Assembly (NCBI GenBank): GCA_001770175.1
Contig: MEQK01000196.1
Location: 1-40,484, forward strand
Direction: 5' to 3'
Source: Bdellovibrionales bacterium RIFOXYD1_FULL_55_31
GTDB lineage: Bacteria; Bdellovibrionota; UBA1018
Length of the DNA stretch: 40,484 nucleotides
A program made the translations under genes and the position numbers. Numbering within the stretch: the stretch's first letter is position 1; each line of letters opens with the position of its first letter. Shown piece after piece: positions 5,184-26,810 of this stretch. The notes beneath the pieces were generated by a model. It was not told the DNA's origin. It ran no database searches and saw only the letters and a list, made by a program, of their open reading frames with translations.

Positions 5184-5242
5184 AGCCTAAGAGGATCACA
5201 TCTTAAGCGATTTTTGCCGAACGTTATATGAGGCGGAGTTTG

Positions 5243-8200: not shown

Positions 8201-11200
8201 GGCGGTTCGAATTCGGCGACCATCAACATCACGATCAAAGATGTCGCCCCGAACATTTCTTACGCTGGGAGTCCGTTCACGCACACCAAAGACGTGACGA
8301 TCGCGTCTCTCACTCCGGCAAACTCCGGTGGAGCAATCGTCTCTTGCAATTCCGTACCGGCATTGCCGGCCGGATTGAGTCTCTCCTCCGGATGCGTCCT
8401 GAGCGGCACTCCGACTGCCATTACCGCAACCGCCGATTACGTGGTCACCGCCACCAACACGGGCGGCACGAGCAGCGCCACGATCAACATCACCGTGAAC
8501 GATGCGAAGCCGGTCATTTCATATGCGGGAAGTCCGTTCGCCTATATCATCAACGGCGCCATTGCAGCCCTGAACGCCTCGAACTCCGGTGGAACGATCA
8601 CGAGTTGCGTTTCAGCCCCGCTTCTCCCGACAGGTCTGGCGATTTCCGCGACTTGCGCGATCACCGGAACACCGACGGCGTTGACCGCAGCCCAAACCTA
8701 TACGATTACCGCTTCCAATACCGGCGGCTCTTCATCATTTGGGATCAGCATTGCCGTAGTCGACGACGCTCCTCTGATCGATTATCTCCCGACTTCGTAT
8801 AACTTCACCTATACCAAAGGCACGGCGATCGACGCGCTCACGCCCAACAACAGCGGTGGCGCGATCACCTCGTGTTCCGCGAGCCCCGCGTTGCCCACGG
8901 GGCTGAGCCTCTCCTCCACCTGTACCCTGTCGGGAACGCCCTCGGCGATCCGAGCGGCGCAGGATTATGCGATTCAAGCCACGAACAGCGGCGGATCCTC
9001 TTCATCCGTGATCACCATCACGGTGAACGATACGGCCCCTGTAATCGCTTACCCGGGCAGCCCTTTTGTTTACACGCTGAATGCGGCGATCGCGACCGTA
9101 ACTCCGACCAATACTGGCGGCGCCATTCTCTCCTGCGCGTCGATTCCATCGCTGCCGGCCGGCCTGAACCTTTCCTCGACATGCGTGATCACCGGCACGC
9201 CAACCGCGCTTAGTACGCAGGCGGATTACACGATTACCGCCACGAATTCGGGCGGGAACTCCTCGGCCGCCGTTCGAATCACGGTCAATGCCACGGCCCC
9301 CGCGATCAGCTATCTCGGGAGTCCCTTTGTTTACGTTAAGAATTCCGCGATTCCGGGACTGAACCCGGCCAACACAGGTGGAACGATCGTATCCTGTGCA
9401 TCAAACCCCGCGCTCCCGGTCGGTTTGAATCTCTCCTCAGTCTGCGTTCTGACGGGAACACCGGCTACGGTAGCCGCCGCCGCGGATTACACGATCACCG
9501 CCACCAATAGCGGCGGTTCAAGCAGCGCGACGATCAATATCAAAGTGAACGATTTGGCCTCAAACCTCAGCTACGCGGGCAGCCCGTTCACTTACACGAG
9601 AAACGCGGCGATCAGCGCGTTAACACCCTCGAACAGCGGCGGGACGATCGTCTCCTGCAACGCGGCTCCGGCGCTTCCGGCCGGGCTGAGCCTTTCCGCG
9701 ACCTGCGTTCTGAGCGGCACGCCCACCGTTTTGGCGGGCGCCGCGGACTATGTCGTCACCGGGACGAATTCGGGAGGGTCCAGCAATGCCACGATCAATA
9801 TCAGGGTTCTCGAACTCGCTCCCAATATCAGCTACACGCCCGATACCCATGCGTTCGTGCTCCGTGAAGCGATCCCGGCCGTTAACCCCACGAATACCGG
9901 TGGGACGATCACTTCCTGCAGCCCCGCTCCGGCGCTTCCGGCCGGGCTAAGCCTCTCAGCGACTTGCGTGATCACGGGTACTCCGAGCGTGACGAGCGGC
10001 GCCTCAAACTACACGATCACCGCGCAAAATTCGGGTGGAAGCTCGACCGCGACCGTGACAATCCGGGTGAAGAACCAGCCGCTGATTCTTTTTTACGGCA
10101 AGACAGCCTTGGGCGGAGGTTTCAACGGCACCGCACCGCTCTCCGCGAATATCTGGAAAACAACCGCGGATGGCCAAACCCGTTCATCCCTGACCTCAAT
10201 GCCCAACCTCGGACGCGATTCCATTTATCCGTCTTTCTCGGCATCCGGCGCCAAGGTCCTTTACTGCTCAAAACGCGCCCTCGACGGCACGGTAGGCAGC
10301 CCGGCAAACGGGTCGTACGACATCTGGACGGCGACTTCGACCGGAGCCAGCCCGACCGGTATTACCGCGAATACGAATAATAATCGCGACAGCGATGACC
10401 CGCCGGTCTTTTCACCGGATGGTACGAAAGTCGTGTTCGCTTCCAAAACATCCCTGAACGGACTTCCTGACGGAAACCCGGCAAGCCTCTCTTATAACAT
10501 CTGGATCATGGATGCCGACGGATTGAATAAAGCCGCCTTGACCGCAAACAGCGTCGCGGGTCTCGATAGCCGGGCGCCGGTTTTCTCGCCCGATGGGATG
10601 ACGATCTACTTCCACTCGAAAACGGCACTGGACGGCTCGAATAATGGAACGGCCGCGAACTCATTCAATATCTGGAAAATCAATCGCGACGGGACCGGAA
10701 AAACGAAGCTCACTAACGAAACACTGGCGGCAAAAGACTGCACGGAACCGTCCGTTTCACCCGATGGGTTGACACTAATCTATGTATCAAAGGCCGATAT
10801 AGGAATGACGCCGGCAAGCTCCACGAATATATGGAAGATGAACGTTGATGGGACAGAACGTACCGCACTCACGATTAACACCAACGCGGCAATGGACAGC
10901 AAGAACCCGCATTATTCCAGCGACGGCAGCGAGATCGTCTTCGCCTCGAAGATGAACGTGAATGCCGCCGCGGTCAGTTCATTCAATATCTGGAAGATGG
11001 CGTCGACGGGCGCCAGTCAGGTCGCGCTGACCACGAACAACGCTGCCGCGCTCGACAGCGATTCGCCGAACTTCTCCCCTGACGACGCCAGAATCGCCTT
11101 CATTTCGAAAATGAACGTTCTCGGCACAGCCGCGAGTTCGACGAATCTATGGGTCATGAACTCCGATGGCACCGGACAGACGGCCATCACGCAGAATACG

Positions 11201-11257
11201 AACGCCGGCCTCGACAGCTATCTCTCACCGCATTCGATCTGGTTTCAGGAACAGTGA
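5243..11257 (+). CDS. Giant Ig-repeat and beta-propeller surface lipoprotein
   Basis: This is a predicted 2004-residue exported protein. The ATG at 5243 is preferred over 5228 because AGGCGGAG lies just before it; it gives MLRYFRPEIGF, a hydrophobic segment and AGC at Cys22, a near-lipobox (Leu at -4). Residues 46-1613 are 18 tandem putative-Ig (He_PIG-like) repeats of about 87 residues, each with a PALPAGLSLS-type core, SGTPT and TNSGGSS...ITV. Repeats 2-18 each hold two Cys about 20 residues apart, probably a disulfide; repeat 1 lacks them. Residues 1614-2004 are seven TolB/PD40-type repeats (NIW...DG...FSPDG...SK), likely one propeller. The protein probably reaches from the cell surface as a stalk with the propeller at the tip. 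Ligand unknown; a role in adhesion is inference. Confidence 0.9.
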   Translation: MLRYFRPEIGFLVLLATLGAGCVNPVSPPGAQSLVATKGPPMQLQYATSPANYPQTIEITPNTLSAQGQIDRLSIRPATLPDGLTFDSATGTISGTPTQITPATEYIVTAYNGYGSNFTRLVIAITDIPPVMSYAGDTTLVYNIGVPIAPITPTLSGGPATDCLAYPPLPEGLTVSPTCEISGTPTESETAANHFVFAVNSGGSSSILFNITVIDNPPTISYPASPFTFYRGIALTTVSATAGGGEITSCAAAPSLPAGLTLGADCAISGIPSNLLAATPHTITATNNGGSASAGISIAIQDLVPDISFSGTPFTFTKGTAIAALIPTNDGGIIDSCTPTPALPAGLALSANCQITGTPTTVAAATNHAIKATNGAGNSTATINIKVNDIPPKFRYASSAFIFLNRSAITPKTVTSTGGAITGCSSSPALPAGLSLSSDCTLSGTPSQSAPATTYLITGTNSGGSGTTTISITVQEIPPVLSFAGSPFTFNKNVPITAKTPANSGGTVTACTSTPPLPTGLVLSSTCIISGTPAVTSAATAYAITGTNSVGSSAPNISITVNDTPPNITYTGSPFNFTLNSPITTLSATNTGGAPTSCSIAPALPAGLAISNSDCSISGTPTALSTAADYTITATNTGGSSTATINITVKDSAPAISYAGNPYNFFKDSAITALSPANTGGAIVSCAISPAVPAGLTFSATDCALTGTPTAVTASTSYTVTATNSGGSSATVLVFEVKDVAPTLSYSPASHILAKGDAVSITATTGGGTITSCNSSPGLPAGFIISNTTCNVTGTANAVSPAASYTITAANSGGSVSSILNITVNDLLPNISFAGNPFEYPLNVAIATLTPTNTGGTVVSCESSPTLPAGLTLSNTCVLTGTPTVLAAAADYTIIATNSAGSDSKSINITVKDTAPTISYIGSPYTYTRGSAIPLLTPTTGGGAIVSCASSPALPAGLSLSSGCILSGTPTAIAAAADYTITATNSGGSNSATINITIKDVAPNISYAGSPFTHTKDVTIASLTPANSGGAIVSCNSVPALPAGLSLSSGCVLSGTPTAITATADYVVTATNTGGTSSATINITVNDAKPVISYAGSPFAYIINGAIAALNASNSGGTITSCVSAPLLPTGLAISATCAITGTPTALTAAQTYTITASNTGGSSSFGISIAVVDDAPLIDYLPTSYNFTYTKGTAIDALTPNNSGGAITSCSASPALPTGLSLSSTCTLSGTPSAIRAAQDYAIQATNSGGSSSSVITITVNDTAPVIAYPGSPFVYTLNAAIATVTPTNTGGAILSCASIPSLPAGLNLSSTCVITGTPTALSTQADYTITATNSGGNSSAAVRITVNATAPAISYLGSPFVYVKNSAIPGLNPANTGGTIVSCASNPALPVGLNLSSVCVLTGTPATVAAAADYTITATNSGGSSSATINIKVNDLASNLSYAGSPFTYTRNAAISALTPSNSGGTIVSCNAAPALPAGLSLSATCVLSGTPTVLAGAADYVVTGTNSGGSSNATINIRVLELAPNISYTPDTHAFVLREAIPAVNPTNTGGTITSCSPAPALPAGLSLSATCVITGTPSVTSGASNYTITAQNSGGSSTATVTIRVKNQPLILFYGKTALGGGFNGTAPLSANIWKTTADGQTRSSLTSMPNLGRDSIYPSFSASGAKVLYCSKRALDGTVGSPANGSYDIWTATSTGASPTGITANTNNNRDSDDPPVFSPDGTKVVFASKTSLNGLPDGNPASLSYNIWIMDADGLNKAALTANSVAGLDSRAPVFSPDGMTIYFHSKTALDGSNNGTAANSFNIWKINRDGTGKTKLTNETLAAKDCTEPSVSPDGLTLIYVSKADIGMTPASSTNIWKMNVDGTERTALTINTNAAMDSKNPHYSSDGSEIVFASKMNVNAAAVSSFNIWKMASTGASQVALTTNNAAALDSDSPNFSPDDARIAFISKMNVLGTAASSTNLWVMNSDGTGQTAITQNTNAGLDSYLSPHSIWFQEQ
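5378..10081 (+). repeat. 18 tandem Ig-like repeats, ~261 bp each
   Basis: There are eighteen in-frame units of about 261 bp. The first (to 5632) is divergent and cysteine-free; the next 17 share a conserved Cys pair (typically SC then TC/GC/DC). Later units are more alike than early ones: 8177-8208 and 9488-9519 are identical over 32 bases. This suggests expansion by unequal recombination. Confidence 0.9.
10082..11254 (+). repeat. Seven TolB/PD40-like propeller repeats
   Basis: Seven units of roughly 55-65 residues carry NIW (or DIW/NLW), then xxDG, a Thr-rich strand, D-S and FSPDG followed by xxxFxSK. The first strand (LILFYGKTAL) and the final PHSIWF could close a seven-bladed ring. Confidence 0.75.
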
Positions 11258-12212: not shown

Positions 12213-13363
12213 ACGGACTGCAGCTTAAGAAGGCTGCGCAGCTGACCGCATGCGGCCAGAATCTCAGCGCCCCGAGAGACCCGAATCAGTGCAGTCAAAC
12301 CGTGATCAACCAGGTATTTTTGGAAAGCAGTGACCCGCTGTTCTGAGGGCTGTCGATACACGGAGCCCTCATGCTCGTTGAAGGGAATGAGATTGATCTT
12401 GCACGGAATCCCGCGAATCCAGTCCGTCAGGCGGGCGGCGTCTTCCAGCGAATCGTTGAAGCCACCAAGAAGAACATATTCGAACGTGATCCGTCGATGG
12501 CTCCCCAGCGGAAACTTTCTGCAAGCCGCCATGAGCGCTTCGATATTCCACTTCTTGTTGACGGGCATGATCTCGGTCCGCTGCTCATCCGTGGTCGCAT
12601 TCAACGAGATCGCGAGCGAGATATCGATCCTTCGGCCCAGTTCCTCGATTGCGGGCACAAGCCCGCTTGTGCTCACGGTCACCTTGCGTTTCGAGAAATT
12701 CAAGCCATCCTGATCCAGGAGTATCTGAGAGGCTTTGATCACGTTTTCAAGATTATGAAGGGGCTCTCCCATTCCCATGAAAACAATATTCGTCAGGGGG
12801 GCGAGGACCCGCATTTCGAGGACTTGAGCGATGATTTCGTGAACCTCAAGATTGCGGTCGAGTCCCTGGATGCCCGTCAGACAGAATTTGCAGCCCATCG
12901 CGCAACCAACCTGGCTCGAAATGCAGGCTGTGAGCCGGCTCCATTCCGCGTCGCCTTGGAATCGCGGTTGGGTTTCCGGCTGTGTTTCCGAGTCCAGTTC
13001 GAGTTCGCGGGCGGCGACGGGAATGATCACACTCTCAACAGTCTTGCTGTCTGTCAGCTCCCAAACAAACTTCACCGTCCCATCGTCCGCCTGACGACGT
13101 TCAAGGACCGGAGGGCGATAGAGTTCAATATTCACCTTGAGCCACTCTCGAAGTTCCTTTGAAAGATCGGTCATCAGATCCCAGTCGAACGTAAATCGCT
13201 GATAAACCCAGTGGAAAATCTGCTTTGCGCGGTAGCGCGCACGTTGTGCAATCTTTTTCTCCGCGTCCTCCGGAGAAACCGCCTGCCGCTCGATTTTGGC
13301 GCGGCCGATCGGCCTAAGCAGATCCGCGAGTTCAGATTGGGTCAAGGATTGAAAATAGATCAT
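12209..13363 (-). CDS. rlmN: RlmN, 23S rRNA/tRNA adenine C2-methyltransferase
   Basis: RlmN is a radical SAM enzyme that methylates A2503 of 23S rRNA and A37 of some tRNAs at C2. The 384-residue product has the cluster motif CAMGCKFC (Cys154, Cys158, Cys161), the conserved TAC before it (Cys147) and the C-terminal AACGQL with Cys372, matching the methyl-carrying cysteine of E. coli RlmN. NIVFMGMGEPL, VTVSTSGLVPAI and VLLGGFND are also typical. An insertion of about 20 residues rich in Gln/Pro/Glu (around residues 119-140) separates the VESVIIP strand from the TACISSQ motif, where most homologues have only a few residues. The gene converges on the YhcC-type gene, and its start is 72 bases beyond the stop of the minus-strand gene upstream. 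Confidence 0.96.
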   Translation of the reverse strand: MIYFQSLTQSELADLLRPIGRAKIERQAVSPEDAEKKIAQRARYRAKQIFHWVYQRFTFDWDLMTDLSKELREWLKVNIELYRPPVLERRQADDGTVKFVWELTDSKTVESVIIPVAARELELDSETQPETQPRFQGDAEWSRLTACISSQVGCAMGCKFCLTGIQGLDRNLEVHEIIAQVLEMRVLAPLTNIVFMGMGEPLHNLENVIKASQILLDQDGLNFSKRKVTVSTSGLVPAIEELGRRIDISLAISLNATTDEQRTEIMPVNKKWNIEALMAACRKFPLGSHRRITFEYVLLGGFNDSLEDAARLTDWIRGIPCKINLIPFNEHEGSVYRQPSEQRVTAFQKYLVDHGLTALIRVSRGAEILAACGQLRSLLKLQSV

Positions 13364-13435
13364 TGCGCTCGGTTTTTAGCGGTTTCAATGCCCGAATTCA
13401 AGGAAAGTTCCGCGGCAAAGCCGGAATATCAACAT

Positions 13436-14239
13436 TCAGAGTCCGAAAACTCCGCGTAACGTCATCAGGCCAAGAAAGTCCCAGCGGAGCGGCACCAGCT
13501 TCACTCGATCGGTCTGCAGCCCCGAGGCGATCTTGCCCCATGGATTCGGCGAATCAGACCAGTCGAGCCAATCCCGGGCCGCGACGAATACGCCCTGAAC
13601 AGGGACCATGTGCTTTTCAGAAAGATACTTCACGACGTCCTCAGGCTGCCGACAACGCTCGGCACCCATGGAGGAGAGATCGGATTTATGAAAAAGCTCA
13701 AGCCGGCCTCTCCGTACGAGAATAAACAGATCTTCCGAGGGCTGCCCTTCCAACCGAATAAAAATGCCATAAGCGGAAGGGAGAACTTTTTTCCACCACC
13801 CCTGGATCGCCGAAAGAAGAAAATGCGGACGGTAGAGAGGATCGCGGCCATTGCTCACGGCATGAACATCCGTCCGAGCCATCGTGCCAGCGGGCGCATT
13901 CGGGCCGCGTTTCGAGGCAAGCGCCTCTTCCGCCTTGGACCGCAGAAACTCCATCTGATCCTGAAAATGCGGAAGCCCCAGCATATCGACCATCCATTCG
14001 TCGACGTCCGCGCGCGCGAACGAAACGAGCTCCCGATGAGAAAGTTCGGCGGCCATCTCCTCAAACCGGGCTCCGATCCAATCCGAAAGGTCTTCCGATT
14101 CCGCGAAAGCGGAAATGATCACGTCTTCTTCCCGGATCACCAGGACCGGTCCTGCCGGCTCGGCGCTTTGCCTGACTAGCGAGCGGCGCCTTGGATAAAA
14201 CATCGACTGGAAACTGCGCCAATCATACGTCAGTTCCAT
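13436..14239 (-). CDS. Conserved-looking hypothetical protein
   Basis: I do not recognise this 267-residue protein. It has no signal peptide or membrane segment and contains several Trp-rich patches (WRSFQSMFYPRRR, IQGWWKKVLPSAYGIFIRLEG, ARDWLDWSDSPNPWGKIASG). The segment after residue ~150 looks like mixed alpha/beta with strands LFILVRRGRLELF and PVQGVFVAARDW. I chose Met at 14239 because GGGGAGG precedes it; an in-frame ATG at 14251 has no clear ribosome site. It overlaps the end of the upstream gene (14223) by 17 bases, so the two are almost certainly cotranscribed and perhaps act together. Confidence 0.75.
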   Translation of the reverse strand: MELTYDWRSFQSMFYPRRRSLVRQSAEPAGPVLVIREEDVIISAFAESEDLSDWIGARFEEMAAELSHRELVSFARADVDEWMVDMLGLPHFQDQMEFLRSKAEEALASKRGPNAPAGTMARTDVHAVSNGRDPLYRPHFLLSAIQGWWKKVLPSAYGIFIRLEGQPSEDLFILVRRGRLELFHKSDLSSMGAERCRQPEDVVKYLSEKHMVPVQGVFVAARDWLDWSDSPNPWGKIASGLQTDRVKLVPLRWDFLGLMTLRGVFGL

Positions 14240-16283
14240 GAGCCTCCCCATGCGTTATCACCGATTGCTCAAGTCGGGGAGCACCCCGCGCAACGCCCGC
14301 TTCGGGCTGAACGCGCTTTGCATTCCGATCCGTATTCACCGCAAGAGACAACACGCCACAAGGTGCCGCCTCCAACGAAAACCGATTCGCCACGACCGGG
14401 TCCGTTTCAGCGGCGCCGACTGCCGCATCGGCCGAAAACCACCCCGCGAAATCCGAAACAGCGACTGCATTTGGAAAAATGATATCGGCGGCAACATGAC
14501 GCCGCGTTTCGTTCAGAATAAAAATACCGAGTTGGGCATCCGGCTTTTCCAGCGGAATCACGTTAAGCCGGCTATCGCTCATTCGACAGTACCCTTCGAC
14601 CTCGCCCAGCGCGAGCATGGAGCCGACAAAGGCGCCCCACGGAGCGGGCGTCTTATCAGGAACTTCGAACAGAACTAGCTTCCCTTCCCCAAACGAGTGA
14701 AGGTGGTACGGGATCCCGAGGTCAACGTCGATCCGCTTTGTCGAGCCGGTCACGGCTTCGAGTTCTCGTCGTGCGGCTTCGGTATAAAGTGTTGTCCGGG
14801 GCAGCGCCACGATCCGCCCGGCTCGCGCAAGCGCGGACAACTTAAACACGAGTTCCCGCGTGAGAATGGTCGCCGGATCGACAATGACCACGCCCGCGCT
14901 CCCGTCGCGGATCGCGAGCTCCACGGAAGCTGAAATCCGCGCGCTTGATCCGGCGTGCTTGAAAATTTCGTCCCAGATCACGCCACCGCTCGACCAAACA
15001 TGGGGCGTCAGATAAATCGCCTTGGTGCGCAGTTTCAGCTGCCCGGCTGCAATCAGCTTCCCGATCGCGTCAGTTCGGCTTCTGAACGCGTGAGAAAGCG
15101 AAAACCAGTCGCTCTCATCCAGGAGAATCCCGCCGCCCTGGCCACCCATGAGGAGCAGCGACTTCAAAATCAGGAACTGCTTCTCAGGATCGGAAAGGTT
15201 CCTGAAGCCGCCGAGCGAACTCCAGTGCATGAAGGGAGCGGCAACACTGGTTGAACCGTACGTCGCACGGGAGGCCGCTTGATCGATAATCGCTGATAGC
15301 CTCGAAATATCGGCGTTGCCCCCGGACAGCGTGTGCAGGAAATGGGAATAGCAGAATCCCGGATCAGCTTCGGGCGTATACAGCTCGATCTCGCGAGCTT
15401 TGAGAAAATTAGCCTTTTTACGCACGAGCTGGAAAGTACGATTCCGGAATACATCCTCGGAATGCTGGTAAAACCAGCGCCGGTTCACCTCATCAAAATG
15501 TCGCGATTTCCAGCGATTCGCGGCCAGCGGATTTGGATCCAGGAACTCGCGTTGACCGTAGAACTGCTCAAGACGTTGCCTGAACGCGATCGCCGCGCTT
15601 CCGCAGTAGTCGCCCGCAACGCCGCCGAAGGCATTGCGGGAAGAGAGCTGTTGTGAGCGGTAGTACTTCCAGAAGCTTCCCGAGAGCGAAACCGTGAGGC
15701 GCGCGACGGTGTTGGGCTGATTTCGTCCAAGGTCCGCCAGGAGCGCGTCCATTCGGGAAAGAAAGCTATAATAACGTTTGTTGAATTCGGGCGCGAACAG
15801 GGATGGAAGACTGAAGGCGTTAGGCGGCAGATTAACGGAAATTCTCGCGGGTGTACCCGCGCTGTTTCCATCCTGCTTTCGTGAAGACTCGAGCATTTTT
15901 CCGGGAAAAGGCTGCGCCATATCGTCTTTGCGGAGCATCACGTCCTTTGGAATTCCTGAATTCAAAAAATGAATCCCGACTTCGGGAGTGATGATCAGGG
16001 AAACAGACATATCGCGCTCAGCGGTAGCCTGAAGAAAGCGCGTCAGCATGTGAGAAATATCCGACTCGATCGCCTGCCAAGGAACAAAGCTCGCGATGTT
16101 CCTCACCCCGCTTCGAACGAGCTGATCCAAACGCTCCGTTAGCGCTGAATTCTTACGAGACAGTCCAGCCGAACCTCCGACCGTTGGACAGAGTTCCCAA
16201 TAGTTGACCAGCAGCTGAACCGGAAACGGATTTCCCCCCCCTGACATGTCATGGAGTATGACACGGCAGATTTCAGGAGTCAC
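14223..16283 (-). CDS. Large unrecognised protein, possible TIM-barrel glycosidase-like fold
   Basis: This 686-residue protein begins with GTG at 16283, with an in-frame ATG at 16247 as alternative. No signal peptide is visible. The N-terminal region (LTERLDQLVRSGVRNIASFV, PWQAIESD, then MSVSLIITPEVGIHF) reads like the first strands of a beta-galactosidase-type (GH42/GH35-like) barrel, and GGQGGGILLDESDWFSLSHAF and GVVIVDPATILT suggest later barrel and Rossmann-like parts, followed by beta-rich C-terminal domains. I cannot identify the catalytic pair, so enzymatic function is only a suggestion. A run of eight G (coding strand) lies just after the ATG at 16247, where slippage would break the frame. 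It is divergent from pgi and overlaps the downstream hypothetical gene. Confidence 0.75.
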   Translation of the reverse strand: MTPEICRVILHDMSGGGNPFPVQLLVNYWELCPTVGGSAGLSRKNSALTERLDQLVRSGVRNIASFVPWQAIESDISHMLTRFLQATAERDMSVSLIITPEVGIHFLNSGIPKDVMLRKDDMAQPFPGKMLESSRKQDGNSAGTPARISVNLPPNAFSLPSLFAPEFNKRYYSFLSRMDALLADLGRNQPNTVARLTVSLSGSFWKYYRSQQLSSRNAFGGVAGDYCGSAAIAFRQRLEQFYGQREFLDPNPLAANRWKSRHFDEVNRRWFYQHSEDVFRNRTFQLVRKKANFLKAREIELYTPEADPGFCYSHFLHTLSGGNADISRLSAIIDQAASRATYGSTSVAAPFMHWSSLGGFRNLSDPEKQFLILKSLLLMGGQGGGILLDESDWFSLSHAFRSRTDAIGKLIAAGQLKLRTKAIYLTPHVWSSGGVIWDEIFKHAGSSARISASVELAIRDGSAGVVIVDPATILTRELVFKLSALARAGRIVALPRTTLYTEAARRELEAVTGSTKRIDVDLGIPYHLHSFGEGKLVLFEVPDKTPAPWGAFVGSMLALGEVEGYCRMSDSRLNVIPLEKPDAQLGIFILNETRRHVAADIIFPNAVAVSDFAGWFSADAAVGAAETDPVVANRFSLEAAPCGVLSLAVNTDRNAKRVQPEAGVARGAPRLEQSVITHGEAHGTDV
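16234..16241 (-). repeat. G8 homopolymer near the 5' end of the 686-aa gene
   Basis: Eight C on the plus strand are eight G in the coding strand, covering codons 15-17 counted from GTG 16283 (the SGGGN segment). Such tracts near a start are typical of slippage-prone contingency sites, but one strain cannot show variation. Confidence 0.6.
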
Positions 16284-17890: not shown

Positions 17891-17919
17891 TTGACGCGCA
17901 AAACTCGCCCGACTACTCT
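17891..17919 (+). promoter_or_regulatory. Possible promoter of the diguanylate cyclase gene
   Basis: TTGACG (17891-17896) is followed after exactly 17 bases by TACTCT (17914-17919), only seven bases before the ATG at 17927. If real, the mRNA would start at or next to the ATG (leaderless), consistent with the absence of a Shine-Dalgarno sequence. The -10 is weak. Confidence 0.3.
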
Positions 17920-17926
17920 GAAATCT

Positions 17927-18880
17927 ATGGTTTGCCCTCCAATTCCAACGAAGAAAAACAACCCAAGCGATGATCGGGGCGAAAAAACCGCGGTACTCCA
18001 GGGCGATCAGGAAACCCTCAAGAAAGAACTTCAGAAAGCCAAAGAGCAAGAAGCGTGTCTCATCATCATTCGAGGCACGCCGCAAGGCCATCGGTTTTTC
18101 TTGACTCAAAACGAGATGACGATTGGGCGCGATCCGGCAGCCGATATCACCGTTGCGGATCAGAGCATTTCCCGAACACACGCGAAGCTAACAAAAGAGG
18201 GATCGCAAGTTCGCCTGACCGATCTCGGCTCCTCCAACGGCACTCACGTCAATGACAAAAAGGTGAATCCCGGCGATTCAGTGCTTCTGGAGAAAGAAGA
18301 TATGATCAGGATCGGAAGTTCGATCCTGAAATTTCTCCCGGCCGGAGAGCTCGAAATCCTTTTTTACGGTAATCTCGGTTCCGCCGCGCATCAGGATCCG
18401 CTGACCAAAATTTACAACAAAGGGTATCTGCTCGAAGCCTTGGACGCCGAGTTCAAACGCGCAAAAGCTTTGCATACGGATTTTTCAGTTTTGTTCTTCG
18501 ATCTCGATCATTTCAAGAAGGTCAACGATACCTACGGTCATGAAGCGGGAGATTACGTCCTGATCGAGATCACGAATCTCATAAGAACGGGATATCTCCG
18601 TCCTAAAGACATTTTTTCGCGCTATGGCGGCGAGGAATTCGTGATTCTTCTGGCCAGGACGAACGCGCAGGCCGCGGGAGAATTGGCGGAATCCATCCGA
18701 TCGGCAGTCGAAGCACATGCCTTCATCTACGAGGGAAAAAGACTGAACGTTACAACGAGTATCGGGGTCGCGGAGCTGAGGACGGGAATTGAATCGCCTC
18801 AAACCTTGCTAAAGGCCGCGGACAAAGCGCTCTATTCCGCAAAAACGTCGGGGCGCAATAGAGTAGTCGCGGCGTCCTAA
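17927..18880 (+). CDS. FHA-GGDEF diguanylate cyclase (DgcB-like)
   Basis: This 317-residue cytoplasmic protein should make c-di-GMP from two GTP. An N-terminal tail with Thr21 (EKTAVL) and a short helix precede an FHA domain (about 45-137) with GRD (67-69), SISRTHAKL and GSSNGT, the phosphothreonine-binding residues. The GGDEF domain (about 155-317) has FFDLDHFKKVND, an active-site GGEEF (234-238) and an intact RPKD inhibitory I-site (225-228). All key residues are present, so it is predicted to be active and product-inhibited. The order FHA then GGDEF is that of Bdellovibrio DgcB, where the FHA reads a phosphorylated N-terminal tail; equivalence here is inference. ATG 17927 is preferred to the in-frame TTG at 17891, which looks like a -35 element. 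Confidence 0.92.
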   Translation: MVCPPIPTKKNNPSDDRGEKTAVLQGDQETLKKELQKAKEQEACLIIIRGTPQGHRFFLTQNEMTIGRDPAADITVADQSISRTHAKLTKEGSQVRLTDLGSSNGTHVNDKKVNPGDSVLLEKEDMIRIGSSILKFLPAGELEILFYGNLGSAAHQDPLTKIYNKGYLLEALDAEFKRAKALHTDFSVLFFDLDHFKKVNDTYGHEAGDYVLIEITNLIRTGYLRPKDIFSRYGGEEFVILLARTNAQAAGELAESIRSAVEAHAFIYEGKRLNVTTSIGVAELRTGIESPQTLLKAADKALYSAKTSGRNRVVAAS

Positions 18881-19276: not shown

Positions 19277-22168
19277 ATGCGTATTTTCGGTTTTCTTTTA
19301 CGCCAGCCTCTTGCGGACTCTTCTGGAATGAGTCTGCTTGAAACCGTCGTCGCAAGTGGAATGCTCTCAATCGTTCTGCTGACCTCAACTTCGATGATGA
19401 CCAGTATTAATTCCAACCGGACCAAGCAGCAGATCAGCTACTCCCGAGATCAGATCATCGGGAGAATCCGATCGACGGTTTTAACTGTCCCCGCGCTGAA
19501 GAACTCGGCGGCATTGACCACGAGTTTGGGGAACTCGGGAGTGCCACTTACGGGCGGCACTGTGCTTTTCCCGCATTACCAGACACTCTCGCTTTGCCAT
19601 CCTGATGACACCAGCCAGAGCGGCTGCGACCGCAGCACGCTTGACGTGTCACAGGGCAATTACTTTTATCTCACGACCGCGCAGGGTACGAATCCGGCGT
19701 CCGCACCGATCATCGCGGGAGAAAACATCTATTACACGGGCCTTGGACAACTCTGTAGCCAGACTGAGGCCCTCGACCCGAACAAATGCCCGCTGTTCGC
19801 ACGAATATGGTTCGAGCCGTTTTGCCTTCAGGACGGAACGACGATCACAAACACCTGCAACAAAGCCCTTTCGATGACCGTGCGCTACGCCGTGGGGACC
19901 CGCCAGGGCTACACGCGAGGGCCCGGCGTTTCGACCCTGGAAGGTGAAATTTATGTTCCCCTTCAAAAGGGAATTCAAGTCACTCGCCTCCTCGACCAAA
20001 GCGGAATCGAACTCCCTTTCTCGAACGGAATGTACCGGCTCCCGAAAGATGTAGACGGAACGAGCGCAGTGCTGGGAATTCGCATAGAAAGTCTCATCAC
20101 CAATCCAGTGAACCTCACTAACTTCACGGTCCAGGTACGCTCGGTTACCGGAACGACGGCCTATAACCTTCAGGACCAGCAGGCTCGTACGGCACTTGCG
20201 GCAGCATCGTGGAACGCCGTTACATCGTTTCCGACGATTTCTTCCTTGGGTGCCCTGCAAAATCAGAACATCATCTTTGGGTCTTTTAACGGAACAAATA
20301 CGATGTGGCCGATCACCGGGAAATGGACTTTGGCGGGCGGTGTCCCTGTCGCCCCCACTTTCAAATCCGGCTTCTACCAGTTCAGAGTCGTGGCAACCGA
20401 TCAGAGCGGCGCGACGTTCGCATCGACGAATTTTCTGACCGCTCGAATCCTTCCAGTTCCCGAAGTGCTCCTCGTGCAGGAGATTCCCGCCGTGAACGAG
20501 CGGGACTGTCATGGAGATGCCAAGTTCCATCACAAATACTTCGCCGTCGATGATGAAGGTTTAACCCAAGTGAAAACCGCGGTTACCGGTCCAACACATC
20601 CGAATTTTACTCCTACTTTGCGCACGGAAGACCTTTCGGAGCATCCAACGATCTACCCCGCTCCAACCTCGGCGGGCAATATTAAGATTGAACTCAAATG
20701 GCCTGCCTCGGCCGACTATTCCGTCTCGATAACAGCTACAAACGCCCAGACCACCGTCACGACGGTCGCGCGAGCTTTCGCCCTGCAGGACGTTCCTCGT
20801 AGCTTCGCGATCGAGGAAGACCCGGCCACGATTCGCATCAACAGCTCCGATACGGTACGAGCCACTTTCACGGCAGGAACTTGTTGTGAGGCACTTTCAG
20901 GCGGAGTGACCTGGACCTTCCCCGCCGTCCCGATTCTGGAAAGTGCAACACCGGCCCCGACGTTCACCGGGGAGTCCCTGCAGTCGTTCGGTAATCGCAC
21001 TCGAGTTGACAACCAGCACCGCTGGACCAGCAGCCTGACCGTAAATGCCACGAAGACGAACGCCAATATGGCTCCGAATATTTCAGCGGAGATTTCGGCC
21101 CAATTGGAGCCTGCTTGCGCCTTGTCCGCGGTGAGCGCCACCAGGAATATCAAGGTACTCGGTGTCCCGACGATCACGTTTCGCACGATGGATTCGATCT
21201 GGATGTCGCTCCCGACCGCGGAACAATTAAGCGGAAATCCAAAAGCCTTCAGCGAAACATTGCTGATCAAGTCTGACTTTCCCCCGCTCGAACCGGTGTC
21301 AGTCAAAGTCACGCGCGAAGGCAGCGAAGCGGCACTCTGTTCAGTGACCTTTGCCGCGGGAGTCGGCAATGATCCTGTTTACGAACCCTGTACCGTTCCG
21401 TCCGGAACACACGGGGCGCTGACCCTCAAACCCGTCGGCGCGAACGTTGCTCTCACGATTTCGAACGTGACCGCGACTCATCGGGCGGCTTTGGGCACCA
21501 GCACCAATCATTATGCATGCTGGGCCAACCTCACCTCCTCCGCGAACTATCCGGCGACTTATACAGTCCCAAGCACACGGGCCATGACGTTGAGCCCGTG
21601 GAATAGTCTCGTCGCGGGAGCGAATGACGACGAAGGCAACTGGAACACGGGTAATCAGAAAAAATATCGCTGCTACGATCATTGGACCGGATCAAATCTC
21701 CCCGATAACGAGGGGCCTGCACCGACTTATTCGAACCAGCAGGACAATTTCAACTCAGTCGACCTCCACAACGCGGTCCACCCGGCGGCCCCGGTCTATC
21801 TTGAAAGAAAAGGTTTCCATGCCCTATTTAGATTCTTTTCCGAAGCGGGCACGGCGAACTGGAGTGAAGCCAACATCCCGACACTCTTCATTGTCGCGCG
21901 CGGCCCAGCTGAGGGGCATTTCACCCTCGAAATCACGAACATCATGCAGACAAACGATGCCCCCTTGGACGACATTACGAGCACGTTCTGCCCGAATACG
22001 CTCACTTCAAGACTGTACTCAAAGCGCCTCAGAGGAAGCGACGACCCGGTAAGCTCGTTTTTCGAAATAAACCAATTCCAGATGCGAGCCTCTCAACTTG
22101 GATATATCTTCATGTGCACCTACGGGCATTGGAATCCATACGGAAAGGCGAGTTCCCCCAATGAGTGA
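19277..22168 (+). CDS. Giant prepilin-like protein 1
   Basis: This 963-residue protein has a type IV prepilin leader: SSG17 then MSLLE with Glu at +5 of the mature protein, followed by a hydrophobic helix (SGMLSIVLLTSTSMM). It should be cleaved by a PilD-type peptidase and enter a pilus or pseudopilus. After the helix comes a Cys-rich module of about 230 residues (LCHPDD...SGCD, GQLCSQ, KCPLFARIWFEPFC), then an extension of about 730 residues with FAVDDEGL, FALQDVPRSF, a vicinal GTCCEA, AMTLSPW, ANDDEGNW and a C-terminal TYGHWNPYGKASSPNE. The extension looks beta-rich and adhesin-like. The start is ATG 19277 with AAGGA eight bases before. A paralogue follows with overlap. Pilins are usually about 150 residues, so the size is exceptional. 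Confidence 0.88.
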   Translation: MRIFGFLLRQPLADSSGMSLLETVVASGMLSIVLLTSTSMMTSINSNRTKQQISYSRDQIIGRIRSTVLTVPALKNSAALTTSLGNSGVPLTGGTVLFPHYQTLSLCHPDDTSQSGCDRSTLDVSQGNYFYLTTAQGTNPASAPIIAGENIYYTGLGQLCSQTEALDPNKCPLFARIWFEPFCLQDGTTITNTCNKALSMTVRYAVGTRQGYTRGPGVSTLEGEIYVPLQKGIQVTRLLDQSGIELPFSNGMYRLPKDVDGTSAVLGIRIESLITNPVNLTNFTVQVRSVTGTTAYNLQDQQARTALAAASWNAVTSFPTISSLGALQNQNIIFGSFNGTNTMWPITGKWTLAGGVPVAPTFKSGFYQFRVVATDQSGATFASTNFLTARILPVPEVLLVQEIPAVNERDCHGDAKFHHKYFAVDDEGLTQVKTAVTGPTHPNFTPTLRTEDLSEHPTIYPAPTSAGNIKIELKWPASADYSVSITATNAQTTVTTVARAFALQDVPRSFAIEEDPATIRINSSDTVRATFTAGTCCEALSGGVTWTFPAVPILESATPAPTFTGESLQSFGNRTRVDNQHRWTSSLTVNATKTNANMAPNISAEISAQLEPACALSAVSATRNIKVLGVPTITFRTMDSIWMSLPTAEQLSGNPKAFSETLLIKSDFPPLEPVSVKVTREGSEAALCSVTFAAGVGNDPVYEPCTVPSGTHGALTLKPVGANVALTISNVTATHRAALGTSTNHYACWANLTSSANYPATYTVPSTRAMTLSPWNSLVAGANDDEGNWNTGNQKKYRCYDHWTGSNLPDNEGPAPTYSNQQDNFNSVDLHNAVHPAAPVYLERKGFHALFRFFSEAGTANWSEANIPTLFIVARGPAEGHFTLEITNIMQTNDAPLDDITSTFCPNTLTSRLYSKRLRGSDDPVSSFFEINQFQMRASQLGYIFMCTYGHWNPYGKASSPNE

Positions 22169-25091
22169 GCCACGCGACATGCATCGCGAAAGCGGAATGA
22201 CGCTCCTTGAAACCGTCCTCGCGATGGGAATGATGAGCATCGTGCTCTACACCTCCCTGATGATGCTCAATAACATCAACCTGACGCAAACCACCCGTCA
22301 GCTCGGTTTTTCCCGCAATAACATTGTTTCGTTAATACGAATGAGCGCCCTCACCCAACCGGGAATCAGTAATTCCGCAGCGCTGACCTCCTATAAAGGC
22401 ACGGGTGGCTTTCCTGATCCATCCGGAGCCGCGACAAACTACCCTCGTTTCAACACGCTGTCCCTCTGCATTCCGGAGGACAGCAGCCAGAGCGGTTGCG
22501 ACAAGAGCGCTATGGATACGGCTCGCGGGAACTTTTTCTATTTGACGACTCCTCAAGCGACAAGTGCTGCCGCGGCGAATCCTGTGGCCGGTGAAAACAT
22601 TTTTTACAACGCCTCAGGTCAGCGCTGCGGCCTCAGCGAGTCCGCGAATGCGAACATCTGCCCGATTTTCGCGAAGGTCTGGTTCGAACCTTTTTGCAAG
22701 GATTTGAGCGCGAATTGCAGCAAGGCCGCGTATCTGATGGTTCGCTATTCAGTCGGCATCCGGGACGGTTACACTCGTACCAATGTCATTCCGCCCGTCG
22801 AGGGAGAAATCTACATTTCGCTTCAAAAAGGGATACAGATTTCGCGCCTTTTGGACCAGAATGGCTCTGAACTCACCAGCTCGGACGGAATGTATCGAAT
22901 ACCGAAAGCGCTTTCCGCAACAGCCACGGTAAAAGGCATCAGAATCGAAGCGCTCGTGAGCAGTCCCACGGGGCTGACGAATTACCGAGTACAAGTGAGA
23001 TCGGTTTCCGGTACAGAAGCTTTCGGTAAAACCGATGCGACCGCCCTGACCGCCTTGACCGCCAAGGCCTGGAGCGACGTTTCGGCCTTCAATACCATTC
23101 CAGCACTGGGCAGCACCCAGCAGAACCAAAGCATCGTGTTCGGTACCTACAATGGTACAAACCAGTCTTGGCCTGTTTTGGGTCCGTGGACGATTTCGGG
23201 TGGCGTTCCGGCTGCTCCGACTTTCAAGTCCGGCTACTATCAGTTTCGCGTGCTCGCGACCGCTCCTGGCGGAGGCGACCTCCCTTCTACGAATTTCGCA
23301 ACTATTCGGATTCTCCAAACACCTCAAATACTGATTGTGGATCCGCCGCTTGGGTCCAGCTATGACCGCGATTGCAGGCAGGGAGTGACTGCGATTTCCA
23401 AATTTTTTGCCGTCGATGACGAAGGCCTTCTCGAGATCCGGACCTCGCTAATCGGTACGGCAGCCGGTTTTACGCCGCCCCCCGAGCAGATCGACGATCA
23501 GAGCAGTACACACCCCACGATTTATCCTGATGCGACGACTCCGCGCTCTGTCGACGTCGGCCTTAGTTATCCGGCGCACGCTGCCTATCAGCTTCGGATT
23601 GTCGCGAAAGCGTCTCCCGATCGGGCGGTGACCAAGGATCAGACGTTCGCCCTTCAGGATGTCGCCCGCACCTGGGCTATCGAATCCGTCCCGGCAAAGA
23701 TCCGCTACATGAATACAGATACGATTACCGCGACCTACACGGCGGGAAGCTGCTGTGCAGTAAATCCGGGTTCGACCGTGAACTGGTTTTATCCCGAGGT
23801 TCCGGTTCGTGACAGCACAGTCGCAAAGCCCGCCTTAAGCGGGTCGGCAACGACCGGATTCAACTGTTCCACCACCGGGAACCAAAAACGCTGCACGGCG
23901 ACAGTAAACGCGCAGGGGATCAACGTGGGACCGCTGAATGAGGCGAACGACATTATCGCTGAGGCGCAGTTCCCAACCGAGGCCGCCTGTTCTTTTCCGG
24001 ATAACAGAACAAACAAGAGCATTGAAGTCACGGCCGTCCCGAAAATCGCCTTCTTGACGCGAGACTCCCTCTGGATGGACTTGCCCAGCGCGGAACAGTT
24101 TTCGAATATGCCGCAAGGCTTTACCCGGACCATTCGCCTGAGAATCGATTTTTCGCCCCAGGAAGGGGTCAGGGTGAAGGTCACCCGGGTTGGACTTGAA
24201 GCGCCCCTTTGCGAGGTCGACTTTGAAGCGGGAACCGGGTCCACTCCGGTGGACAAACCTTGCAATCTCGGGGGAGCGATGACAGGGGATCTCGTCATTA
24301 AACCGGTCAGCTCGAACGTCGCAAGCGCACCGGATCTGATCACCGCGTCTCATCGTGCCGCGATCGCGGCGAGTACGATCCACTCTACCTGTTCGACAGC
24401 TCTGACCGCAGATCCGGAGTATCCGGCGGTTCATACGATTCCCGAAACCAAAGCCATGACCCAGAGTCCCTGGGGCAGCACCACGCTCGGCGATAACGAT
24501 GACGAAGGCAACTGGATCGCGGGGAGGACGAAAAAACTTCGTTGTTACGACAGAACCCCTTATCACGGCTGTGAAGGATGCTGGGGACTTCCAGAGAATT
24601 ACGGCCCGACACCCAATTATTCCAACTGGCAGGACAACTATTATTCCGTTGATATTCACAACGAACAGCATCCGCTCGAACCGGTTTACAGAAAGCTTTA
24701 CGTCGACTTCTCCACGTTTCTCGCCTGGCGAACAGGGCCGGGTACCGCTGATTTCACAGTCAAAAACGTTCCCAGTCTTTTCGTGATCGCGCGGGCGAGC
24801 ACAAATGTCGTGGGACGCTTTACTTTCTGGAGCGCTACGGCAGGGTTCGTTCAAACCGAGCCAGTTCCTTACGAGGATATTACCAACCGCTACTGCCCCG
24901 CTTTGCCCGAGACTCGCCTCTACAGATTGAAATTTCAGGCTCCGACGGCCGGTACTGCGACGATGGTCGGGGTGAACGGGGTCAGGAACGAATGGAATAC
25001 CCCAGGCTTCGCGCAAGTGGGTTATGCGTTTTTCTGCACCTACGGCCACTGGAATACGATGGGAAAGGAAAATTCTCCCAATGAACTCTGA
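22161..25091 (+). CDS. Giant prepilin-like protein 2 (paralogue)
   Basis: This 976-residue protein is colinear with giant prepilin 1 over its whole length. The leader ends at Gly12, followed by MTLLE with Glu at +5 and a hydrophobic helix (AMGMMSIVLYTSLMML). Shared landmarks are SLCIPEDSSQSGCDKS, RCGLSE, CPIFAKVWFEPFC, EGEIYISLQKGIQISRLLD, FAVDDEGL, FALQDVARTW, GSCCAV, AMTQSPW, NDDEGNW, the SVDIHN..HP block and TYGHWNTMGKENSPNE at the end. The start overlaps the previous stop by eight bases; the SD-like GGAAAGG lies inside the end of the first gene. The two seem to be an old tandem duplication, now well diverged. The start at 22161 is chosen for the short leader; a longer in-frame start lies inside the upstream gene. 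Confidence 0.88.
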   Translation: MSEPRDMHRESGMTLLETVLAMGMMSIVLYTSLMMLNNINLTQTTRQLGFSRNNIVSLIRMSALTQPGISNSAALTSYKGTGGFPDPSGAATNYPRFNTLSLCIPEDSSQSGCDKSAMDTARGNFFYLTTPQATSAAAANPVAGENIFYNASGQRCGLSESANANICPIFAKVWFEPFCKDLSANCSKAAYLMVRYSVGIRDGYTRTNVIPPVEGEIYISLQKGIQISRLLDQNGSELTSSDGMYRIPKALSATATVKGIRIEALVSSPTGLTNYRVQVRSVSGTEAFGKTDATALTALTAKAWSDVSAFNTIPALGSTQQNQSIVFGTYNGTNQSWPVLGPWTISGGVPAAPTFKSGYYQFRVLATAPGGGDLPSTNFATIRILQTPQILIVDPPLGSSYDRDCRQGVTAISKFFAVDDEGLLEIRTSLIGTAAGFTPPPEQIDDQSSTHPTIYPDATTPRSVDVGLSYPAHAAYQLRIVAKASPDRAVTKDQTFALQDVARTWAIESVPAKIRYMNTDTITATYTAGSCCAVNPGSTVNWFYPEVPVRDSTVAKPALSGSATTGFNCSTTGNQKRCTATVNAQGINVGPLNEANDIIAEAQFPTEAACSFPDNRTNKSIEVTAVPKIAFLTRDSLWMDLPSAEQFSNMPQGFTRTIRLRIDFSPQEGVRVKVTRVGLEAPLCEVDFEAGTGSTPVDKPCNLGGAMTGDLVIKPVSSNVASAPDLITASHRAAIAASTIHSTCSTALTADPEYPAVHTIPETKAMTQSPWGSTTLGDNDDEGNWIAGRTKKLRCYDRTPYHGCEGCWGLPENYGPTPNYSNWQDNYYSVDIHNEQHPLEPVYRKLYVDFSTFLAWRTGPGTADFTVKNVPSLFVIARASTNVVGRFTFWSATAGFVQTEPVPYEDITNRYCPALPETRLYRLKFQAPTAGTATMVGVNGVRNEWNTPGFAQVGYAFFCTYGHWNTMGKENSPNEL

Positions 25092-25782
25092 CCCTCGTCA
25101 TTCCGAGGAAGGCTCCATCGTCCTTTCGTTCGTCTGCGTATTCAGCTTGATCGCGCTCCTCTCTCTCCAATACCTCATGGGAATGGATATGATCGGCAGA
25201 AGAGCCCAGGTCACCTCAAATATCCAGGAAGGCAAAACCTACCTTCTTGAGCAACTTTACGAGTTGGTTTCAAACGACTACGCCTTGAAAAACTCGCGTT
25301 TCTCGATCAATGCGATCCTGTCCGATTGTTTGAAAGCCCCCGCGGACCGGACTTACGGTTGCGACGAAACGCAGATCTATAACCTCGTGACCTTTGCGCC
25401 GACTCCGATCATGGCCTTCGATGGCTCCTGGCCGGCGGCCCCCGCCTCACTCCCGCGCCTGACAGGCGCCAAAGAGGCGGACTCGACGGGACTTACCCCC
25501 GTTTACGTGTTTTATACTTCATCCGGGGGACGCTGTGCCGCGGATCTGACGAACGAAAACAATCTCTGCCCCTTACACGCGTACACACAATTCACGCCTT
25601 TATGCGGCGGAACCTTGGCCAGCCCGGCAGCCTCGGCCGCGCCCGGTCCCTGTGCCGGGCCGGCAAACGGGTTCAAAATCTTTCTCGGCGTCATTTCGAA
25701 CATCACGGGGATTGCCCACTTGAGTGACGTTGGTTTGAAGCGCAAAGAGTTCACTATCAGCGCCCAGGTTTTCTTCAACTGA
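25081..25782 (+). CDS. Pilin-like protein sharing the module of the giants
   Basis: This 233-residue protein starts at ATG 25081, overlapping the previous stop by 11 bases behind an embedded GGAAAGG. A short charged leader (NSDPRHSEEG) precedes a hydrophobic helix (SIVLSFVCVFSLIALL) but position +5 is Ser rather than Glu, as in some PilX/GspK-type minor pilins. The rest matches the N-terminal module of the two giants: SDC..TYGCDET, VYVFYTSSGGRC, LCPLHAYTQFTPLC, FKIFLGVIS and a final beta strand (KEFTISAQVFF). It therefore looks like the module alone, without the large extension. It may cap or prime a pseudopilus tip with the giants; that is inference. Confidence 0.78.
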   Translation: MNSDPRHSEEGSIVLSFVCVFSLIALLSLQYLMGMDMIGRRAQVTSNIQEGKTYLLEQLYELVSNDYALKNSRFSINAILSDCLKAPADRTYGCDETQIYNLVTFAPTPIMAFDGSWPAAPASLPRLTGAKEADSTGLTPVYVFYTSSGGRCAADLTNENNLCPLHAYTQFTPLCGGTLASPAASAAPGPCAGPANGFKIFLGVISNITGIAHLSDVGLKRKEFTISAQVFFN

Positions 25783-25797
25783 ATAGGAGTGGGACTC

Positions 25798-26265
25798 ATG
25801 ACCGGGTTATCAGCCAGAAACGAAAAAACGCCAAGACCACGATTTTATCAGCGCAAGTACGTCGTGGATCGCAACCTGCAATTTGGAATCGTCGGTTTCT
25901 TCTTTTCACTCGCTGTGATCACGATCGGCGTTTTCTGTATCGCCTACTTCGTAGTCCTCAGCGACCTTCGCCAAAATATCGGAATCGTGGACGATGCCGC
26001 CAGGCGCTTTCTTGAACTCGGGATTGCGAACCTCAACGACAGAGTCGTCCTTCACCTGGTCGGGTTCAGCCTTTCGATCCTCGCCTATTTCGTGGTCGGA
26101 GGAATCCTGCTTTCGCACCGAATTGCCGGTCCTGTTCACCGCATCCGGACCCATTTAAGAGCCGTTGCGGATAAAAAGAACCCTCCAGCTCTGAAATTTC
26201 GCCGCCACGATTATCTCAAAGATTTGGCCGAGGACATCAATCGGGTGACTGACAAGAAGAGCTGA
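25798..26265 (+). CDS. Small two-TM membrane protein with HAMP-like stub, copy 1
   Basis: This 155-residue protein has two membrane helices (about residues 29-52 and 83-105) separated by a short periplasmic loop with VDDAARRFLE, then a cytoplasmic tail SHRIAGPVHRIRTHLR that resembles the start of a HAMP linker. No kinase, MCP or cyclase domain follows. ATG 25798 is chosen because TAGGAG lies eight bases before it; the in-frame GTG at 25789 overlaps that site. It begins 15 bases after the third pilin-like gene and is clearly cotranscribed. A paralogue follows. A role in anchoring or signalling for the pilin-like set is inference from context. Confidence 0.8.
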   Translation: MTGLSARNEKTPRPRFYQRKYVVDRNLQFGIVGFFFSLAVITIGVFCIAYFVVLSDLRQNIGIVDDAARRFLELGIANLNDRVVLHLVGFSLSILAYFVVGGILLSHRIAGPVHRIRTHLRAVADKKNPPALKFRRHDYLKDLAEDINRVTDKKS

Positions 26266-26348
26266 ACAAATGGCCGGTCGCCGCGAATTCATTCTTGTCG
26301 GCCCAAGGTACAGACCGTAAACTATCAAGATATGAAGGCGCTATTCTG

Positions 26349-26810
26349 ATGAGTCATTTGCCAGAAGCTGAAAACTCGCGACCCCTTTTTTTTAAGCGCC
26401 GATACATTCTCGACCAGCCTCTGCAATTCGGGATCGTCGGTTTTTTTATCAGTCTGGCGGTAATTACCATCGGGATCTTTTGCCTCGCTTACTACGTGCT
26501 TTTCAAGAGTCTCGCTGAGAACATCAGCCTTTTGGACGAGTCTTCAAGGAATTTCCTGCAGACGACCCTGACCCGGCTCAATCAGGACATGATTTTCAAT
26601 CTCGTCGTGTTCACGGTCGGAATTCTCCTCTACTTCCTGGTCGGCGGAATTCTTGTCTCCCATAGGATCGCGGGGCCGATTCACCGCATTCGGATGCATC
26701 TGAGAGCGCACCTGAACCATGAGAATCCGCCCCCCTTGAAATTCCGGCAGCAGGACTTTCTCAAGGACCTGGCTGAAGACATCAATAAAATCACAAACAA
26801 CCGGCCGTAA
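26349..26810 (+). CDS. Small two-TM membrane protein with HAMP-like stub, copy 2
   Basis: This 153-residue paralogue of the preceding gene is nearly identical in layout: a basic N-terminus (KRRYILDQPLQFGIVGFF), two membrane helices, a short loop with LLDESSRNFLQ, SHRIAGPIHRIRMHLRAH and a tail ending DFLKDLAEDINKIT. The LKDLAEDIN block is conserved in both copies, suggesting a binding or dimerisation helix. ATG 26349 is preferred to the in-frame TTG at 26295, which would add an unconserved N-terminus. It starts 83 bases after copy 1. A weak GGCCG/CGGCC hairpin spans its stop codon (26803-26816). Confidence 0.8.
   Translation: MSHLPEAENSRPLFFKRRYILDQPLQFGIVGFFISLAVITIGIFCLAYYVLFKSLAENISLLDESSRNFLQTTLTRLNQDMIFNLVVFTVGILLYFLVGGILVSHRIAGPIHRIRMHLRAHLNHENPPPLKFRQQDFLKDLAEDINKITNNRP

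Follow-up and report, generated by a model that had tools for sequence, protein, structure and literature searches.

A six-cysteine pilin head common to two giant prepilins and a small partner in Bdellovibrionota

Three consecutive prepilin genes of a Bdellovibrionota genome encode a common pilin head built on six cysteines, for which neither Pfam nor the PDB holds a match. Two of the products are giants and the third consists of the head alone. The genes lie in a window of 40,484 bases, which is one entire contig of a 3.69-Mb draft genome whose relatives belong to the Bdellovibrionota. The three proteins look like modular minor pilins, a known kind, for an existing filament machine, and not like a new machine. 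We lean, with moderate confidence, towards placing them together in one tip complex on a type IV filament whose machinery is encoded elsewhere, most likely a T4a pilus. Across the phylum, the same head is found fused to other display domains, which makes the giants of the trio one instance of a broader design, with a single pilin base for many display domains.

Gene layout and the shared head

The three genes overlap one another (Table 1), an arrangement that suggests translational coupling. The two giants are 46% identical end to end and form sisters with a support of 0.98 in a tree where long-branch relatives are uncertainly placed. This grouping and identity suggest that the pair arose by tandem duplication within the lineage; only a single giant is present in a relative of the same family. 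Promoter and terminator scans at the locus gave results at or below chance, and no plasmid relatives of the trio were found.

Table 1. Features of the trio locus, with positions in the window.
Feature	Position	Strand	Remarks
Giant prepilin 1	19277..22168	+	963 aa; leader, then Gly and Glu5-bearing helix (SSG^MSLLETVVASGMLSIV)
Giant 1, alpha1 helix and six-Cys head module	19277..19996	+	Cys 107, 117, 160, 171, 183, 194
Giant 1, extension	19997..22165	+	Predicted tandem beta-sandwich (Ig-like) rod and Cys-rich C-terminal domain, from alignment to giant 2 and the giant 2 fold
Giant prepilin 2	22161..25091	+	976 aa; ESG^MTLLETVLAMGMMSIV; start overlaps giant 1 stop by 8 bases
Giant 2, alpha1 helix and six-Cys head module	22161..22856	+	Cys 103, 113, 156, 167, 179, 186
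Giant 2, extension	22857..25088	+	Predicted tandem Ig-like domains, then a conserved C-terminal domain rich in Cys and aromatic residues (residues 730-976, approximately)
Small Cys-head pilin	25081..25782	+	233 aa; no Glu5 (SEEG^SIVLSFVCVFSLIALL); 11-base overlap with giant 2; Cys 83, 94, 152, 163, 175, 191
Two-TM HAMP-like membrane protein, copy 1	25789..26265	+	No output domain; HAMP match at E = 0.069, short of the cut-off
Two-TM HAMP-like membrane protein, copy 2	26349..26810	+	55% identity to copy 1

The original prediction held that the three proteins share four motifs (C..GCD, Y..xG..C, CP[LI].A and F.P[FL]C), the small protein being the module alone and the giants the module plus an extension. 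All four motifs were recovered in each of the three proteins, the first reading LCHPDDTSQSGCD in giant 1, LCIPEDSSQSGCD in giant 2 and DCLKAPADRTYGCD in the small protein. The six invariant cysteines found within the first 190 residues of the giants match the six of the small family one to one, and the fourth and fifth lie exactly 12 residues apart in almost all the proteins examined. The C-x11-C motif is present in 98 of 101 head-bearing proteins. BLASTP aligned the small protein with giant 2 at E = 3e-6, while profile-profile comparison related the small family to the close giant family (96%, E = 3.5e-9) and to the distant giants (E = 1.5e-12). A profile built from small proteins only found the module inside giants, both in giant 2 (22539-22700, E = 7e-6) and in those of G133, G326 and G295. 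Together, the profile-profile matches and this search bear out the reading of a module with and without an extension. With a head-only profile, the giant 1 head was matched at E = 1.5e-36, giant 1 itself being among the members of that profile. Once the N-terminal helix was removed, the heads scored 40.2 over an aligned core of 33 columns, whereas none of 40 column shuffles exceeded 19.2, and masking of the cysteines lowered this score to 20.3. In view of this drop, the evidence for homology comes mainly from the six-cysteine framework, together with the intermediates.

Pfam and NCBIfam searches of the three proteins returned sub-threshold matches only, and the head profile gave no convincing match among PDB sequences. 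In the model of the small protein (pLDDT 81), a helix spanning residues 5-63 is followed by strands in a pilin-like fold. The model of giant 2, of moderate confidence (pLDDT 68.8, pTM 0.41), features a helix at residues 15-63, strands at 169-178, 191-200 and 213-220 and, further on, many beta domains in succession. Predicted secondary structure agrees between the proteins, with a long alpha1 helix and strands flanking C4-C5 and C6. In these predictions, this is the type IV pilin fold, in which a long alpha1 helix is joined to an antiparallel beta-sheet head, and three disulfides probably brace this head. A fold search of the small protein against the PDB returned nothing significant, which indicates that this head differs from the pilin heads known so far, and no description of a six-cysteine pilin head in Bdellovibrionota was found in open-access papers. 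The six cysteines and the C-x11-C spacing thus offer a signature for a family of pilins that went unrecognised in the Pfam, NCBIfam and PDB profile searches made here.

Beyond the head, Foldseek related giant 2 to multi-Ig chains (mastigonemes, cadherins, S-layers and alpha-2-macroglobulins) with E-values down to 2.5e-10 and TM-scores of 0.1-0.2, low values that are expected where domain orientations differ. In this model, the extension of about 730 residues resembles a rod of beta-sandwich (Ig-like) domains. The last 245 residues or so of the giants form a domain that is conserved in the alignment and rich in cysteines and aromatic residues, with no sequence relatives in the PDB. Pfam reported no domain in the extensions, and no binding domain of known function was recognisable in them.

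Glu5 pattern, pairing and distribution of the head

In the alignment of the nine close giants, Gly12 and Glu17 (equivalent to Glu5) are invariant. An N_methyl match was obtained in 11 of 12 giants at E <= 0.1 (best 1.6e-5), that of giant 2 (E = 0.016) falling short of the Pfam cut-off, and the sequence matches in the PDB were type IV pilin N-termini. The giants fit the description of a class III signal peptide, with a hydrophilic leader ending in glycine, about 20 hydrophobic residues and Glu5, whereas the small protein does so without Glu5. This difference is general: the leader glycine is invariant in the small family, and Glu5 is absent from every small partner in the trio loci and present in all giants. 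The prepilin motifs of the trio are T4a/T2SS-like (G^[MFIY]xL-E). The initial view of a three-pilin set with one shared module stands as regards the sharing, with two amendments: Glu5 is missing from the third protein, and the module extends across the phylum.

The asymmetry extends beyond the trio. Among 34 loci encoding at least two Cys-heads, trio loci included, exactly one Glu5-less member and at least one Glu5 member were found in 27, compared with a mean of 16.1 after shuffling (p = 1e-4), and in 19 of 26 when trio loci were excluded (p = 0.006), for loci picked from the stronger and larger matches and leader sites called by a script.

Close full-length giants are present in 8 of 369 Bdellovibrionota genomes (two in G000 and one each in G002, G133, G172, G191, G310, G326 and G327). 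The neighbourhood survey across the phylum confirmed their pairing, the small gene being adjacent to a giant in all eight. Distant giants with adjacent small relatives were found at a second locus of G327 and in G295, and a giant fragment lies at a contig end in G123, near pilB-T-C-like genes. Divergence of the giants follows that of the small proteins (r = 0.986, 45 pairs), as expected for co-inherited partners, though simple vertical descent gives the same result. When contigs were scanned with one giant as query, nothing was found, while the alignment as query revealed four loci. Searching the phylum with complete giants gave matches in 171 of 369 genomes, a figure not taken as a prevalence because these matches are mostly to the generic N-terminal helix. 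The head-only profile, used instead, detected the module in 67 of 369 genomes, in 51 of the 235 of high quality and in 43 of 182 genera.

Head-bearing proteins from selected loci (n = 101) range in length from 180 to 1034 aa. Among the 82 of these submitted to Pfam, the grafted domains were Peptidase_S74 (6), an endosialidase-type chaperone, collagen-IV C4/NC1 (6), RCC1 (2), collagen repeats (2), and Laminin_G_3, TSP1, TIG, Big_9 and Cadherin_5 (1 each), counts that are not frequencies, since strong and large matches were favoured in choosing the sample. Some of these domains are best known from animals. Inspection by eye had suggested a vWA domain in L116:6980-9037, but Pfam gave no such match at E <= 0.01. 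The whole looks like a modular dressing of pilus tips rather than a one-off. As to size, prepilins of about 970 residues encoded head to tail had been considered exceptional. Such a tandem does rank among the largest prepilins described, but proteins bearing this head range from 180 to over 1000 aa in length, and modular pilins of up to 860 aa had already been listed (PMC8179133).

The head family as a whole is more interesting than the trio itself. It is conceivable, though we put it forward tentatively, that Bdellovibrionota possess a kit of interchangeable pilus tips on this undescribed six-cysteine head, serving in recognition of prey, host or matrix. The trio would be one such tip, with a Glu5-less cap and Glu5-bearing partners whose display domains are species-specific (rods of about 730 residues made of Ig-like domains, S74-matured fibres, RCC1 propellers, TSP1, laminin-G or collagen-IV NC1). 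To our knowledge, the surface-recognition molecules of the predators in this predator-rich phylum are largely unknown. Two-gene sets with the same head, of the kind seen in G144 and G156, occur in culturable Bdellovibrio relatives, in which the combination of a cap and a bearer of varied display domains makes the matching of domain to surface directly testable.

Candidate machinery and the proposed tip complex

A pseudopilus with large adhesin-like heads had been put forward as a plausible new surface system. This was not borne out: the window around the trio encodes neither an ATPase nor a platform protein, a secretin or a prepilin peptidase, and T4aP and T2SS gene sets are present elsewhere in the genome. 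The former comprises pilB/T/C-like genes (contig C170) and pilM-Q-like genes (C165), and the latter gspF to gspN-like genes (C163), with a GspK-like gene separate from the trio in the gsp cluster, and a gspD-like gene (C179). Tad-like genes, namely those for a secretin and T2SSF proteins, were found on C192 and C29. G002 likewise carries a T2SS gene cluster; the reading that G000 and G002 have no T2SS, drawn from a T2SSK-family search that returned no GspK, was dropped because GspK-like genes lie in the gene neighbourhood. A search for PilY1 gave no match, and its control searches were silent too.

In the arrangement that we favour, the prepilin peptidase would cut the leader after the conserved glycine and the three alpha1 helices would pack together at the filament tip. 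The small, head-only pilin would cap the complex, while the giants, which have kept Glu5, would sit just below and hold out their tandem Ig-like rods. This order is suggested mainly by the Glu5 pattern and by the tip complexes known to be capped by a subunit without Glu5 (PMC10191384). The six-cysteine head would act as the common docking base, the one that bears other display domains across Bdellovibrionota, and the Cys-rich domain at the end of the rod may contact a surface, the matrix or another cell, in keeping with a putative adhesive role.

Alternatively, the trio could be an accessory tip of the T2SS pseudopilus, the giant and small proteins working in the periplasm with GspH-K to recruit or push out a substrate. 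In G133 (L013), the gspG-H-I-J-K/L-M-N cluster does contain a giant, a small and a HAMP-like gene, co-oriented and placed after gspK and before the gspL-like gene; GspK also lacks Glu5, and the T2SS clusters of the source genome and G002 fit the same scheme. However, this is the only one of eight loci with the trio inside a gsp cluster, gaps of about 300 bp flank the insertion, and the T2SS cluster lies elsewhere, without the trio, in G000, G002, G172 and G326. Moreover, a rod of about 730 residues would be hard to fit in a periplasmic pseudopilus and would better suit a pilus that exits the cell, for which reason we prefer T4aP and regard a T2SS tip as unlikely. Decoration of a Tad-type (T4c) pilus, in the manner of the Myxococcus KilLMN tips, seems more improbable still, since tad genes adjoin none of the trio loci examined and the prepilin motifs are of the T4a/T2SS type. 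In its favour, the secretin and T2SSF genes suggest a Tad-like system in the source genome, and each Kil tip is a heterotrimer in which one short minor pilin joins larger ones and many disulfides are predicted; a tip candidate has also been reported from Bdellovibrio (PMC12075869).

The adjacent HAMP-like gene raises another scenario, in which the giants would be stalks anchored in the inner membrane by a prepilin-like N-terminus, outside filaments, through which the HAMP-like protein would sense strain or a ligand. This gene adjoins the trio in six of the genomes with close giants (G000, G002, G133, G172, G191 and G310), as well as one distant giant, in G295. Yet it is not adjacent at the trio loci of G326 and G327, and every one of the 26 genomes tested has HAMP-like paralogues, whether it carries giants or not, which weakens its candidacy as a specific partner of the trio. 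The invariant prepilin cleavage motif and Glu5 point instead to filament packing, and we consider the stalk scenario the least probable of all.

Comparison with known systems

The favoured T4a tip complex has counterparts in several described systems. Streptococcus sanguinis PilB and PilC also combine a pilin module with a bulky C-terminal graft and are adhesive and presented at the tip (PMC8179133, PMC9934059). The giants differ from them by a six-cysteine head without Pfam or PDB match, a rod-like graft of about 730 residues and an adjacent gene for a head-only partner. At 963 and 976 aa, they also exceed in overall length the largest modular type IV pilin listed in a survey of such proteins (860 aa; PMC8179133). 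Like the trio, the GspH-I-J-K and PilHIJK(+PilY1) sets associate a Glu5-less cap with Glu5-bearing minor pilins encoded together (PMC10191384, PMC7541494). In contrast, the giants are several times larger, and the small protein had no match to the T2SSK family, that of the GspK/PilK/PilX caps, in Pfam or NCBIfam.

By analogy, the trio may work like the tips of the Myxococcus Kil (Tad) pilus, KilL, KilM and KilN, which are likewise encoded by small minor-pilin gene sets, one short and the others with large distal domains, and provide predatory bacteria with Cys-rich, interchangeable tips (PMC12075869). As far as descriptions can be compared, the Kil tips are TadE/F/G homologues on a Tad pilus, whereas the trio shows T4a/T2SS-like motifs, no tad neighbours and no Tad-family match in Pfam or NCBIfam. 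In the same phylum, the mosaic adhesive trimer (MAT) fibres described from Bdellovibrio also set varied tips, including S74 chaperone ends, on a common base (PMC10769870). Published descriptions give those fibres a signal peptide, an N-terminal beta-rich domain (about 130 aa) and a trimeric beta-helix, while the trio has prepilin N-termini and the six-cysteine pilin head, with no S74 domain found by Pfam, and so lies outside the MAT group. The trio thus resembles MAT fibres in principle but not in build.

Surroundings of the pilin trio

Directly 5' of the pilin genes in the window lies a gene for an FHA-GGDEF protein (diguanylate cyclase), which was not found at the other trio loci that were read. 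Further upstream, the predicted lipoprotein carries 18 He_PIG Ig-like repeats and ends in a PD40 propeller. The two large ORFs encoded on the reverse strand of the window had no Pfam match at E <= 0.001. The two-TM HAMP-like family was present in all 26 Bdellovibrionota genomes tested, with 1-6 matches per genome. At L013, the trio locus of another Bdellovibrionota genome, the giant, small and HAMP-like genes share one orientation within a gsp cluster, with a gap of ~300 bp on each side.

Features in the window and at related Bdellovibrionota loci (L-numbers)
Feature	Location	Strand	Evidence
Predicted lipoprotein, 2009 aa	window 5228-11257	+	
Large ORF, 686 aa	window 14223-16283	-	
FHA-GGDEF protein	window 17891-18880	+	
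Short HAMP-like proteins with two TM segments, lacking an output domain	window 25789-26810	+	
Large ORF, 437 aa	window 38129-39442	-	
Giant, small and HAMP-like genes within gspG-H-I-J-K / gspL-M-N cluster	L013:4477-16720	+	
Tandem Cys-head pilins with C4	L057:4982-6691, 6693-8555, 8606-10168	+	Pfam, structure match
Tandem Cys-head pilins with C4	L165:2144-7284	-	Pfam, structure match
Pilin operon, probable Bdellovibrio genome	L116:6018-9971	+	
Three pilins, Cys-head-like region then thrombospondin type 1 repeats	L117:6941-8722, 9566-11044, 12427-14010	-, +, -	
Three tandem pilins, ~640 aa each, six-Cys head and Peptidase_S74	L118:3219-9001	+	
Small head-only pilin and adjoining large pilin	L161:1665-4155; L162:1561-4035		

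Other small and large pilin combinations

At L161 and L162, head-only pilins of 180-184 aa adjoin large pilins of ~640 aa, a layout resembling the small-plus-giant arrangement of the trio. The large members bear RCC1-type propeller motifs, and RCC1 models were matched by two members of the scanned set. The L116 operon encodes a Cys-head pilin lacking the prepilin residue Glu5, a 685-aa prepilin and a Cys-head pilin with Glu5. A vWA/MIDAS-like stretch was seen by eye in the 685-aa prepilin, with no confirmation from Pfam.

Domains grafted onto the Cys-head

In the relative G040, tandem Cys-head pilins bear a collagen-IV NC1 (C4) domain towards the C-terminus (Pfam, E to 2.4e-18) and match the collagen alpha-1(IV) structure (E = 8.9e-11). 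C4 was matched by 6 of the 82 scanned Cys-head pilins, a count that is not a frequency, the set being chosen towards strong and large hits. No mention of a bacterial NC1 was found in a paper on collagen-IV origin. The thrombospondin-repeat pilins belong to a complete, 2.66-Mb genome. The Peptidase_S74 of the L118 pilins is an endosialidase-type chaperone domain, a maturation domain like that of tail-spikes, here carried on a pilin.
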